A stretch of DNA of 64,000 nucleotides from assembly GCA_004194705.1 (NCBI GenBank), contig SADC01000876.1:62001-126000 (forward strand). Reading direction: 5' to 3'. Source of the stretch: Ditylenchus dipsaci (Eukaryota; Nematoda; Chromadorea; Rhabditida; Anguinidae). Shown here piece after piece: positions 48,501-54,500 of this stretch (its first letter is position 1; each line of letters opens with the position of its first letter). The notes under the pieces were generated by a model. The model was not told the DNA's origin, did not search any database, and saw only the letters and a list, made by a program, of their open reading frames with translations. Made by a program: the position numbers and the translations under genes.

Positions 48501-51500
48501 TTGTAGTGTTCGTGGCATAAATAACGTTTTTCGTGGCACATTTCAGGTTTTTCGTGGCATTTTTCAGTTTTTTCGTGGCACATTTCAGTTTTTTCGTGGC
48601 ATCCCGTTTTTCGTGGCAGAAATAATGTTTTTCGTGGCATATTTCAGGTTTTTAGCAAACTAAATCAATTTATGCCAATCTTATTTTGTCGCAATTTGAA
48701 TTGTCGGCTCTAGTAGAGCCGCTCTACCCCGTTAGCGCCCAAATTGTTTGCGCCAAAATCGTTATAGCAAAAACCGTTACATTTTTAATTAATAAGCTTG
48801 CTACATATGCTTTTTCTAAGTAATTTAATTAATATTCTCATTTACAAGTTAATACTCAAATTGATGCCAGAAAGACGGGCTACATTTTGAGCAGAGGGTT
48901 GTAAATGACCATATCTGCAAAATTGACTAAAAACTGCAAAAGTTCTCAAAAAAGTCCAGAATTCCGGAAATTTTGGAGTTTTTAGTAAATTTTGCAGATG
49001 TGGTCATTTACAACCTTATAGTCAAAATGTAGCCCGTCTCTCTGGCATCAATTTGAGTATTAACTTGTAAATGACAATATTCACGAAATTACTTAGAAAA
49101 AGCATATGTAGCAAGCTAATTAATTAAAAATGTAACGGTTTTTGCTATAACGATTTTTGGCGCAAACAATTTGGGCGCTAACGGGGTAGAGCCGAATTGT
49201 CGCAATTTAAAATGTCGCAGGCTGCTCCTGCCCGAATTTTTAAGGGGTAAAACTTTTTTTTGTCACAGATTCACTTTTTCTGTCACAGATTTCCTCATTT
49301 CTGTCACAGATGTTAGTTTTCCCTGTTTCTTTCGAAATTTTGATCTTTTTTGAAAGTTATTACACTATCGGATAGCCTTGCGATTCTAGTTTCTGGCGAG
49401 GTATCACTTTTGCATCTTCCTTGCAAAATATAACACAAATAGGTGAAAGTATGAAGGAAGTCAGAAAAATAATGGGGGTCATAATTTTACCTTTTTGTGC
49501 CACATTGTGCAGAGATGGTGCAGCAAATCATACCTCGCCAGAAACTAGAATTGCATAGCTACTTAATGATGTTAAAACTTTGGAAAAAAGGTTAGGAAAT
49601 TTAAGGGGGGGGGAACTTTATATGGACATAGGACAGTTGGCATTGGACAGTTGACATTGGTTTTCAACTTATTTTTTACCACATTTTTGTTTTGAAAATT
49701 ATTCTTTGTTATTTCAAACGTATCACTAGAAACCATCTCCAGTGTTGCCGGACTGTCAATGCACCAACAAAATCAAGTAGTCATCCACTTGGTGCGAATT
49801 TTTTTTCGTGTTTTTCAGGTTTCAAAACCTCTTTACTGTACTAATTCGAGGATTCTAAAGATTGTTTGACGGTAGTAAAATGCCGTTTTCAAGGGTATTT
49901 TTCGAGTTCTTGTAATTCCGATTAAATCACTACTTTAAAAAATGCAAACTACAGGCAACCCTATATTAAACGGCTCCGATAGATTAGCATCATTGACTTA
50001 ACGGCGCCTCCTCAGGCTCAATGTGGCTGGATTCCTGATAATTTCGGGCGCACCACAATTCGTCATTTCGTTCGGTGTGCCGAAAGACCACCAAATCAAG
50101 CTTGATTTGATTAGCGTACCTAATGTGTCGTTATATCGAGATCTACAGTACCTTTAGAATACTTTTTAAAGTTCATTGATTCAGAAGCTTGTCCATTATA
50201 TTTTTTTGTACTTCAAGGTGCTGAGGTTGGCCGCCCTAAATATGCTGAGCGATTGAACTAAAGATAAAAGTAATTCACGAATTTTTTTGAAAACATCACA
50301 AACTACCGGTAAAGCAGTTTCCATCCCCTTCGATCATCAAGAACTTCTCTGGATTATTTGGCTCGCAGTTTAAACGAAACTTCTTGATTGGTAAGTAGAG
50401 CGTTATAGATTCATCCTCTCTTACTTCTGCAAATACAACTTATGCTTAAAAAACTAATTAAAAGACTAAAGGTTTAAAAGATAAAATACTTACTGTTTGG
50501 CTCCCGAAATGATTTGAGTTTGTCTTCATCGTCTTTGTCGCTGACGAATGGCTCAAGCTTTGGGATGTCTACCTGCAAACTTTCGTCTTCGTTCACAATT
50601 TCCACTTCTTCCTGAGAGGCATTCTTTCTTTTTTCTGACTAAAATCAGAAAGAAATGAAAATTTACAAAAACAAAAAGAACAGTATTACCCAAGGGGATT
50701 TGCTTTGATTCCCATTAAAAACCCTACTTCCGAAAGATACTTGCTCATTACCTCAGCATATTGTTCTTCTGTAGATCCATCGTCCAAAAACTGAGTCAAA
50801 TTTGCTTGTAGATCTTGCAACCTTTCACTGATTTCTGAGTACAGAGGATTTGGCTCGTTAGGTATAACTCGACCGATTCTGATTCCGCAACATTGAGCTT
50901 GCTCTTGGTAGTGAAGCTAAATTTTTTTGTTCAAACCATAAATAATAATTACGAGGTACTTCTCTATTTCGCACAATCCACTATCCGATTCGTGCTCCCT
51001 TTATGTATAACCTTACGATGTATAACCTTACGATGTATAACCACACCCTGGTCATTGCCAGCTTTATCCAGAATTTTTCGCTCAAGTTTTGCGACGGCTG
51101 AGCAAGGCTTTTCGACTGACCCAGTAGCTATTTCTGCGATGACACTTCTGCGCAGTTGATTTCCTTCAACCTAGAACTTCAACCTATCTAGAAACGAATA
51201 AAAAAATAAACCTCAGATCGCTCTTTAGGTCCACTGCAAAAATGGGCAGCTCCGTTTCCAGTTCCTTCCCAGCTTATTTTGTCATCTCGAATAGCAACCC
51301 ACATCGGCACAGGAGTATCTTTAGCAACTCTGCTTGACTTAGAACTACGAATTTCGCGGCAGCCAGCACAGCCGGACTGAATCCTTCCAGTTTCATCGGT
51401 GCGTTTTCTTTCATCCAGCACTGTCCAACAATAGCAATGGGTGAGTGGATTGACCAGGCACGGAGTAATGGCTAAAGTCACGTTTCCTACTTTCTCTGTT

Positions 51501-54500
51501 CGCTTTAGCACGACTTCTTCCTTGGCTTTTAATTTCCACATCTTGAGCAATTTACTGAAAAAATACAGAACACGGATGGATAGAAAAACAATAAATATTT
51601 TTAATTGAGCTTTCAGCTACCAAAATTGAAAACATAGTTTATGATAGTAAATGGTCATTCAATCGAAATTACAAGAACTCGAAAAATACCCTTGAAAACG
51701 GCATTTTACTACCGTCAAACAATCTTTAGAATCCTCGAATTAGTACAGTAAAGAGGTTTTGAAACCTGAAAAACACGAAAAAAATTTCGCACCAAGTGGA
51801 TGACTACTTGATTTTGTTGGTGCATTGACAGTCCGGCAGGACTGGAGATGGTTTCTAGTGATACGTTTGAAATAACAAGGATAATTTTCAAAACAAAAAT
51901 GTGGTAAAAAATAAGTTGAAAAACCAATGCCAACTGTCCAATGCCAACTGTCCACTTTGAAAACCAATGCCAACTGTCCACTCCAAAAACCAATGTCAAC
52001 TGTCCAATGCCAACTGTTCCCAATGCCAACTGTCCTTTTACCACTTTATATACGCATCGCCTTAGGTCACAGGTTCGACTACCACTGGCTGCAGACCTTA
52101 TTTTTTTTTCTCCTTTTATTTACAGGTTTAGTGTCGAAATGTAGCTAAGCTTCTGGGCTTTCATTTGAGCTATCATACAGATGAAAAGTTGGTATAAAGT
52201 TAGGGCTAAAATATGGAAAATCCAATTCGATGAAATCCTCAATAGGACTATACCAGTGCTTTTCGGTAGTATCCTGGAAATGATGTTTTTTCCCAATTTT
52301 AATTTACATACTCATTTGCAACCTTACACTCAAAATGTAGCCCTGCCTCTTGCCGTCATTTTCATCATACGGTTGTAAAAAATCATGTGAATTGAAATCG
52401 CAATAAAAGTCAATTCCTAAATAATACCGAAATCCTCCCCCTCAATAGTACTCTATTGTTCTTTGGTCAAACCTTCGCTAGCTACCTTGTTTTCTGAAGT
52501 GATTTTGGTGTGTAAAAATTTCTATCTTGTTCCCCCATGAAATTCTGAGTCTAGAAAGTCACTAAACGCGTGGACAAATAAATAAAATTGGTGGAGGCTC
52601 AGGCTATATAAGCCTAAGTACTCATCATTTTGGCTGGTTTCCTCTAATTTTGGTGGTCATTTGCGAAAAATCGGAAAATTGAGGCAGTTGATGACAGCAA
52701 AGCAGTGCTGAAAATGGTTGCAATCGATTGCTCGATGATTTTTGGACCTGAAAGTCAAAAAGCTTACTAAAAAATTAAATTAAAACACCCCCAGAGGGAC
52801 TAGAACTTTCGACAAAAGGCGATGTGTATATAAAGTTCCCCCCCCCCCTTTAAAAATTTATCTTAGTTTTTGAAGCAGCATTCACTCAGTCAATAGCTCA
52901 TTTGGTAGCTCTAAACATCAACCATATGATGTGAGAAGCTACATAAGCAACTGGAAAATAAAAGAACCACGCCAACTGAATAATTTCGGGAAAACAGTGA
53001 AAAAGCAAGGATTCTGTTTCGCAGATTCTTAGCGAGTAGTCTGTTTTAGCATCCGCAAACAGACTCTTCATTGTGAATGCGCCTTAAAGGGGCATGCCCA
53101 CGCTAATAAGAGGTGTTGCCCGGGAATTCAAAAATTTTTCCGAATCATTGAACTTCTGTACGGAATTTTCAGGGCTAAAGTACACTATTTGGGGTAGCCC
53201 AAAAGTGCCTTTTCTCAAGGCCTGAGTATTTTTTAGGCCGCTTAAACAATAGAAAAGTCCAAAAAAGTGTTGGAAAAATATTTTTAAAATATTTTTTCGA
53301 CTGCCTTGGTCCCCCTGTGTTTTTTTTTCTATTTTCGCCTTGGTCCCCCTTATGGGTTTTGGTCATTTTTTGACTTTATTACCGCTATTAAACTAAAAAG
53401 ATAAAATTTGAACATAGTTTTGTTAACTGGGGCCTACCGCATAAATAAACTCTGGTAGGCATGCTTTTTCATGCATCCAGAGTCCCTTTTGAGTGATTTG
53501 TATCTAAGGTATGGAGGTCTGCGCATCTCAACTCCAAGCCCACTGCGCCAACAAAGGGTGCGCAGGGGGCTTGAGAGTTAGAGATGCGCGCACTCACTTA
53601 CCTTATACATGATTCTAAGCAAGACTCATGATCGAAAATGCATAAAGAAGCTCTTTTCGCAAAGCTCCAGTAACCAAAACAGGGTAAAGTACAAAAATGG
53701 CCAAAAACCATAGGGGAGACCAAGGCAAAAATAGAACAAAAACCACAGGGAGACCAAGGCAGTCGAATTTTTTTTTCGAAAAATGTCCTTCCACTGTTTT
53801 TTGGCCTTTTCTATAGTATAAACGGCTTAAAAAATACTTAGACATCGAAAAAACGCACTTTTGGGCTACCTGAAATAGTGTACTCCTGCCTTTTTCAACT
53901 TGGTTTTTAACAAAACCATACATAAAATTAAATTCTGGGCCTTGTTTTGTAAGAAACCAAGTCGAAAAATCCGTACAGAAGTTCAATAATCCGGAAAATT
54001 TTTGAATTTCCGGGCACCACCTCTTATTAGTGTGGGCATGCCCTCTTTAACAAGGCTTTTCAAAACGCCCGAAAATGTTTCCTTCGGACGTGTTTGCATG
54101 GCGCAGTGGGTAAAGCTGTTCGTCACCAGGAAGATGCAAAAAGTAAGGGCGAAAATCGAATCTCTGTTCGTCACACGATTTAACATAGCAAAATCAGCCA
54201 TTTTCCTCGAGGTCACGAGTTCAACCCTACTTGCAATCACCTTCGATTTTTTAATTTTTGCAAATGTATATTTAGTAAAGCGCCATTTTCGTTGTTGTTA
54301 GTCCATTCGACGTAAAATCGAAAAGTAAAAATAGGTCATGAATATCAGATTTTCAACTTTTCCTACAAAAATTTTAGTACAGATCAGATGAAAGTCCAGA
54401 CTTCACGTCAAATATAAGGCAAAAGTTACATGAACTTATTTTTTATTTTCGCATACGAATGCGGAGGTTTGCATTTCAGAAGATGAGTCATATACCAAAA

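Follow-up and report, generated by a model that had tools for sequence, protein, structure and literature searches.

An internally deleted Mutator-like element in Ditylenchus dipsaci and its probable descent from a Tm1-like transposon with a transposase-OTU gene

The element at positions 49624-52042 of a 64,000-nucleotide stretch of the nematode Ditylenchus dipsaci (contig SADC01000876.1; the whole stretch, referred to as the window, is C872:62001-126000 of the 227-Mb, 1359-contig assembly that was searched) very probably derives by internal deletion from a Tm1-like Mutator/Foldback transposon, whose gene carries a transposase and an ovarian tumour (OTU) cysteine protease domain. The element itself is an ordinary deletion derivative; what is new here is a Tm1-like Mutator with a probable transposase-OTU fusion, which the arrangement of exons in longer relatives places in several subfamilies within a single nematode genome. 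Exons for the transposase core and the OTU domain are likely spliced into a single fused protein.

The whole element and the features of its ends, to which no strand is assigned unless stated, are as follows.

49624..52042, gene on the minus strand: whole element, an internal-deletion derivative (arms, end motifs and deletion mapping)
49615..49623: left target site duplication ACTTTATAT, exact 9 bp
52043..52051: right target site duplication ACTTTATAT, exact 9 bp
49624..49630: asymmetric 7-bp outer motif GGACATA, at the 3' end of the gene
52036..52042: asymmetric 7-bp outer motif GGTAAAA (TTTTACC on the plus strand), at the 5' end of the gene
49631..49658: two subterminal 14-bp GGACAGTT units
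51926..52035: stretch containing five subterminal 14-bp units, inverted
49631..49935: left inverted arm
51649..51953: right inverted arm

The 9-bp duplication ACTTTATAT lies directly outside both 7-bp motifs (GGACATA at 49624 and TTTTACC at 52036) and has the length expected of a Mutator target site duplication, which is 8-11 bp and mostly 9 bp. The ends are Tm1-like, with the 7-bp GGTAAAA and GGACATA motifs followed by GGA and then by tandem units of about 14 bp of the GGACAGTTGGCATT type, two at the left end and five at the right, and the arms are complementary at 90% over 305 nt without gaps and at 96% over 308 nt with gaps. An earlier sequence-only reading of the window had described the exact 9-bp duplication, the long inverted arms and the subterminal repeats, all of which are confirmed, and had proposed a genome search for the element end. 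With up to one mismatch, the 14-mer occurs 90+77 times genome-wide against 10+7 for its reversed control, and GGTAAAAGGACAGTT, which goes with the outer motif at the 5' end of the gene, 188 times against 75 for its own. The window copy by itself has no Pfam match, as would be expected if the GGACAGTT ends and OTU-like letters were coincidental; the probability of such a coincidence is negligible, and it is already refuted by the 14-mer excess over control together with the 9-bp duplications, profile matches and cluster order described below. At C81:57575-57979, a stretch of about 400 bp, the GGACAGTT units also face both ways, in a copy resembling a miniature inverted-repeat transposable element (MITE), as in Tm1-ML.

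Tm1 of Meloidogyne, as far as the available portion of its description extends, shares with the element asymmetric 7-bp outer motifs with GGA just inside, tandem units mostly of 14 bp, inverted ends of the foldback kind, duplications of 9 bp and a member with a Mutator-like element (MULE) transposase; it also includes derivatives that arose by deletion (Tm1-D) and short copies resembling MITEs (PMC3169594). It differs in that Tm1-A encodes a 496-residue transposase with FLYWCH and MULE domains, whereas the Ditylenchus element has no FLYWCH match and has an OTU tail; the unit sequences also differ, and the transposases could be compared by description only (PMC3169594). Neither 'OTU' nor 'ubiquitin' is mentioned in the main text on Tm1 (PMC3169594).

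The gene in the window copy is reduced to remnants.

51209..51541, minus strand: exon 1, cysteine/histidine (Cys/His) N-terminal region, no Pfam family
51054..51170, minus strand: exon 2, transposase start, following the full reading to about residue 146
51002..51062, minus strand: deletion junction region, with residues ~147-423 (the MULE core) missing
50957..51001, minus strand: 15 residues of the final exon of the core (WIVRNRE and before)
50689..50916, minus strand: linker exon (LHYQEQ...MGIKANPLG)
50489..50638, minus strand: acidic linker exon
50307..50439, minus strand: OTU exon with EGDGNC, frameshifted right after the Cys codon (50314-50316)
50258..50306, minus strand: 49-nt GT..AG intron
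50182..50257, minus strand: remnant of the second OTU exon, with stops

Of the reading of the longer copy on C1351, only residues 1-146 and 424-509 have a counterpart in the window copy. The description of a Mutator-like element lacking a transposase thus holds for this copy, the core being absent except for its last 15 residues. The Cys/His exon, EGDGNC and HLEVQKN reported on the minus strand are present, and the coding pieces are real; the gene is not split, however, its parts being exons separated by short introns such as the 49-nt GT..AG intron at 50258-50306. The OTU is broken by the frameshift after the Cys codon and by in-frame stops in the next exon, and its histidine end was looked for in the window copy and not found; no Pfam match, to OTU or to any other family, was obtained for this copy alone. 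It is a dead, non-autonomous copy that could move only in trans, if at all.

What the window copy has lost is found in longer relatives, the ends of which are built in the same way. Eight of 27 scanned loci (L043, L044, L046, L050, L051, L057, L062 and L063) had the array of the upstream end close to the N-terminal exon and, in the stretch examined, no downstream array; three of these were extended. Two relatives, C1351:227712-231400 and C127:268930-272195, are complete between terminal repeats and flanked by exact 9-bp duplications, and both hold, in one direction, the Cys/His N-terminal region, the MULE core and a C-terminal OTU. Their MULE-like core, placed after the N-terminal region and ahead of the OTU, carries DGSF, FDCE, CSFH and TTNSAES, which are usual MULE signatures. 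In the third extension (C1256:278100-282569) neither an OTU match nor a corresponding downstream end was found, but the core is matched more weakly (31%) on the same strand at C1256:280052-280570.

Profile matches establish the OTU through these relatives and not via the window copy. The Pfam cut-offs are 23.3 bits for OTU and 27.6 bits for MULE (PF10551), and OTU scores in two relatives are 41.3 and 47.8 bits, with matches for the C1351 reading (E 2.6e-10, 41.3 bits) and the spliced C1256 reading (E 2.7e-12); the OTU signature claimed from sequence alone therefore holds for the family and fails for the window copy, where it is broken. The C1256 copy, whose exon 1 is 69% identical to that of the window, holds the best of the four Pfam OTU matches of the whole-genome family scan directly downstream of its N-terminal exon. 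The MULE family is matched at 37.7 bits by an alignment-derived row from C1283 and at 21.4 bits (E 3.4e-4) by the C1351 reading. In five aligned OTU rows DGNC is kept in three and HFD in four, with HFE in C1256; C1351 and C1293 have both motifs, and in C1256 the Cys and His motifs lie on separate exons. The Cys of DGNC and the His are presumably the catalytic residues. Since divergent copies keep both motifs, the association of OTU with the transposon is old. The N-terminal region probably binds DNA or protein; FLYWCH was not found in four such regions, in a search that may drop matches weaker than E ~0.1. No NCBIfam match was obtained.

Different copies have lost different parts of this gene. 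The internal gap of the window copy (residues ~147-423) is common to C703 and C1248, and other gaps are present in at least 6 of 22 other element sequences (C1256, C1310, C1198, C706, C1248:192 kb and C705), a pattern of independent internal deletions. In C1198 no more of the OTU than its final 26 residues has survived the deletion, so the OTU is not specially retained. Taken as a whole, the account that we hold with considerable confidence to be the best is that the window element is a deletion derivative of a transposase-OTU Mutator.

The sequence-only reading had offered, as one of two possibilities, a host gene captured in Pack-MULE style. In a recent event of this kind, a host OTU gene would have been captured between MULE ends and carried as a passenger. 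Pack-MULEs, in the available extracts of the literature, do have MULE ends around gene pieces without a transposase, which is how the window copy looks with its OTU-type exons and no core, and the C1256 OTU resembles the solved domains of OTUD5, OTUD3 and OTUD1 (E 2.8e-6 to 1.4e-5). The gene of the window element, by contrast, comes from the transposon itself and has lost its interior: its two ends are the N-terminal region and the OTU, the N-terminal and linker exons around the OTU belong to it, and longer relatives have the core between the same parts. OTUs of different subfamilies are, moreover, only 36-46% identical to that of C1351, so the association is old. The discovery of the core between these exons led to the rejection of recent host-gene capture, which is now highly improbable; the fusion may still go back to an ancient capture.

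That the core and the OTU belong to one protein is suggested by splice phases that fit across the linker in C1351 and by two UniRef gene models of D. dipsaci, P0003 and P0009, in which the core and the start of the OTU are joined. A search of protein databases found nine relatives in all, six UniRef entries of D. dipsaci and three short proteins from unnamed sequence collections. The alternative, two adjacent genes for a transposase and an OTU protease, draws on the fusion having no cDNA support, on introns that complicate the reading and on truncated gene models (P0003). Against it, besides the splice phases, the first Met before the OTU cysteine in the open stretch lies only 21 residues from the Cys end in C1351 and only 8 in the window copy, so that translation could not begin within the OTU exons at a point well ahead of the domain. 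Two separate genes are therefore unlikely; because they would share the derivation from the same transposon, the probabilities given to the one-protein and two-gene readings overlap. UniRef lists pieces of these elements under the names of 'OTU domain-containing' and 'AAA+ ATPase' proteins of nematodes, a likely annotation trap; P0001, a 968-residue 'AAA+ ATPase' model of D. dipsaci, opens with transposase residues of the family of the window element and is probably a chimeric annotation.

The same order recurs across the genome. From 68 N-terminal places, the best 150 of 183 core matches and the best 150 of 154 OTU matches, a gap limit of 2.5 kb gave 260 clusters, among which, for the matches listed, 10 had N-terminal region, core and OTU, 7 core and OTU, 7 N-terminal region and OTU, and 11 N-terminal region and core; the single-part clusters were 34 with the N-terminal region alone, 78 with the core and 113 with the OTU. 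At 28 of the 150 OTU places a core lay no more than 2.5 kb away on the same strand, and near 68 N-terminal places an OTU was found at 20 and a core at 24, always on the same strand; the opposite strand gave 0 in all three comparisons. As the search scores best candidates only, these counts are lower bounds. The claim that the gene had travelled with the element at least twice was thus right about repeated travel and understated it, a large family being present.

Of 115 Pfam MULE places, 3 (C13, C281 and C1154) are followed on the same strand by an OTU place no more than 6 kb downstream. On C13, which belongs to a different clade with a sub-threshold FLYWCH (E 0.041), a 34.2-bit MULE match is followed 0.74 kb downstream by an OTU-like stretch (39% identity in pairwise comparison, E 2.6e-15) that has no Pfam match. 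C75:67300-70300 (L089) has an OTU-like reading in which PNGHC replaces DGNC and SHFDVV is kept; several OTU places of this type have nearly equal scores, and MULE-like motifs upstream were seen by eye only, with no Pfam MULE match.

The seven clusters with an N-terminal region and an OTU and no listed core, together with the divergent C1256 copy, which is open in its N-terminal and OTU exons with an ambiguous join between them, might be taken as accessory elements, that is, as a core-less protein of N-terminal region and OTU kept by selection to regulate transposition in trans. The substitutions were examined from aligned exon counts, preferred to a raw tblastn codon comparison in which out-of-frame stretches inflate the nonsynonymous rate (dN) in several pairs. 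Over all exons, the nonsynonymous and synonymous counts were 30/11 for the window against C703 (ratio 0.75), 23/10 for the window against C1293 (0.62) and 37/8 for C703 against C1293 (1.29). The other three carry stops, and the three C1248 pairs (ratios 0.78, 0.95 and 0.83) were set aside for the all-exon ratio because the C1248 row is misaligned beyond its deletion. For exon 1 alone, the core-less copies of the window subfamily gave ratios of nonsynonymous to synonymous rates (dN/dS) of 0.23-1.76 over six pairs with few changes. Copies of the window type are close to neutral on small counts, with no clear constraint, and the purifying selection for which the sequence-only reading had proposed to look was not found between them. 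This makes it less likely that selection maintains a separate accessory gene, as do the missing histidine end of the window OTU and the 26 residues left in C1198; such an element is accordingly very unlikely, and what survives of the accessory protein that had been suggested is the OTU idea, now as an apparent C-terminal domain of the transposase. Across divergent subfamilies (C703, C1293, C1256 and C901), raw tblastn comparison of the OTU left one of five pairs saturated and gave ratios of 0.29, 0.19, 0.17 and 0.31 for the other four, at synonymous rates (dS) of 0.64 to 2.2, and 0.68 for the close pair C703-C1293; past constraint on the OTU may be supported by these values, if loosely.

Several observations weigh against a transposase-OTU fusion as the source. 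The fusion is itself read from exon order, predicted splice sites and gene models; the C1351 splice near residue 146 is ambiguous, and a structure model has a low pLDDT (predicted local distance difference test) of 35. No intact full-length copy was seen among the relatives examined, the search for such copies that had been proposed having yielded two that are complete between their ends and both frameshifted, C1351 in the last core exon and C127 at the OTU cysteine. The MULE match is below the cut-off in C1351, at the score given above, and in an alignment-derived row from C59 (22.6 bits), and the C1252 row has no Pfam MULE match; the N-terminal region has no family match above cut-off. An OTU without a listed core makes up 113 of the 260 clusters and an N-terminal region alone 34, in part because only the best candidates were scored. 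A C2-type copy has the N-terminal region and core and no OTU in the 2.1 kb examined downstream, so OTU tails are frequent and not universal. Finally, dN/dS for the OTU in six close full-type pairs (C1351, C127, C1153 and C706; raw tblastn) is 0.39-0.91, so constraint on the OTU is not clear there.

If the family behaves as other Mutators do, the longer copies would supply a transposase that binds to the arrays of 14-mers, cleaves the DNA and integrates the element with a stagger of 9 bp, and core-less copies may be moved in trans by the same transposase. The OTU tail might then strip ubiquitin off the transposase itself or off host factors present where the element is excised or integrated, and removal of ubiquitin could stabilise the transposition complex or ease repair. 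A deubiquitinase role of the OTU in aiding transposition is a tentative proposal, credible and still somewhat doubtful. The broader scheme, in which a built-in deubiquitinase would shield the complex or remodel repair in several lineages while core-less N-terminal-OTU copies such as C1256 regulate in trans, is quite unlikely. The question raised is whether a transposase that brings its own deubiquitinase gains stability.

No report of a nematode MULE-OTU fusion was found among the open-licence literature matches listed. The HM in the name MuDR-6_HM presumably stands for Hydra, a reading that fits PMC2836005. This Mutator-type element (Hydra, group 14) is tabulated with 'Ovarian Tumour Gene' and differs in its cnidarian host, in a terminal inverted repeat given as 'None' and in having no zinc finger, the comparison being with the table entry only (PMC6446971). 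In the available part of PMC2836005, ubiquitin-family proteases are found on unrelated transposons, with OTU or Ulp1 on Ginger1, OTU on Helitrons and Ulp1, not OTU, listed for Mutators, and the ubiquitin pathway is suggested to act in transposition. Ginger1 resembles the Ditylenchus element in having a C-terminal OTU (or Ulp1) on a DDE transposase, which is, however, Gypsy-integrase-like and not of the MULE type (PMC2836005). Helentrons and Helitrons with OTU likewise have an OTU-like cysteine protease in a transposon protein, but this is a rolling-circle Rep-helicase and not a DDE transposase (PMC6431247, PMC2836005, both as available in part). MULE-MuDR elements are widespread in nematodes according to the accessible part of PMC11118728, the main text of which has no mention of OTU, and nothing bearing on the MULE-OTU question appears in the corresponding parts of PMC3482391 and PMC6875170. 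Few transposons are known to pair a transposase with an OTU, and the probable nematode MULE-OTU fusion adds a case to these; less firmly, two other MULE lineages of the same genome (C13 and C75) may have it too.

A second element lies within the window in an intron of the phosphoenolpyruvate carboxykinase (PEPCK) gene.

10062..11440, minus strand: second element in the PEPCK intron, only OTU exons of the gene found; the right end is approximate, being the coordinate of the sequence-only reading
10729..11154, minus strand: OTU exons (EGDRNCLHR ...), broken
10575..10673, minus strand: last OTU exon, with HFDVV

The relative reported here is real and lies between PEPCK exons, the PEPCK_N match on the plus strand running over ~9268-9402 and then ~12789-12947 on either side of it. 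It has OTU exons, in which the OTU is broken (DRNC at the cysteine and a stop ahead of HFDVV), and no Pfam OTU match was obtained for this copy.

Exact 9-bp duplications flank 6 of 13 sequences (the window copy, C1256 (L074), C703, C1248, C1351 and C127). Three others (the PEPCK copy, C1293 and L064) are without the outer motif at one or both ends; C1198, C1310 and L052 have no exact 9-bp repeat, which makes four of 13 when C698, one base off, is counted. The L074 duplication is weaker evidence because the sequence on either side of that element is repetitive and has a second, longer word in common at a greater distance. C698:4700-8300 (L080) is 99.15% identical to the window locus over 3.3 kb including the flanks, with a duplication that differs by one base; it was rejected as an independent copy, since the alignment extends into the flanks and the insertion is the same, and is likely the other haplotype of the window locus.

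A MULE next to the C1310 copy was considered as part of the same element and rejected, being bounded by its own inverted repeats. This separate element, L083 (C1310:117500-122012), adjoins the N-terminal/OTU copy and has a tail that is Ulp1-like by eye only, without a Pfam match. An N-terminal exon scores equally (48.1 bits) at C2, C367, C957, C1240, C1295 and C1311, six places that are possibly a recent burst of a related lineage; the one examined, on C2, has no OTU close by. Beside the C1256 element, L074:1-250 is a minisatellite of GGTAGGCGAGGAT-type units. About 2 kb to the left of the window element, a fragment of a different MULE transposase, of the DATYKLN type, lies on the plus strand at 46903-47802 and matches PF10551 at 27.7 bits against the cut-off of 27.6.

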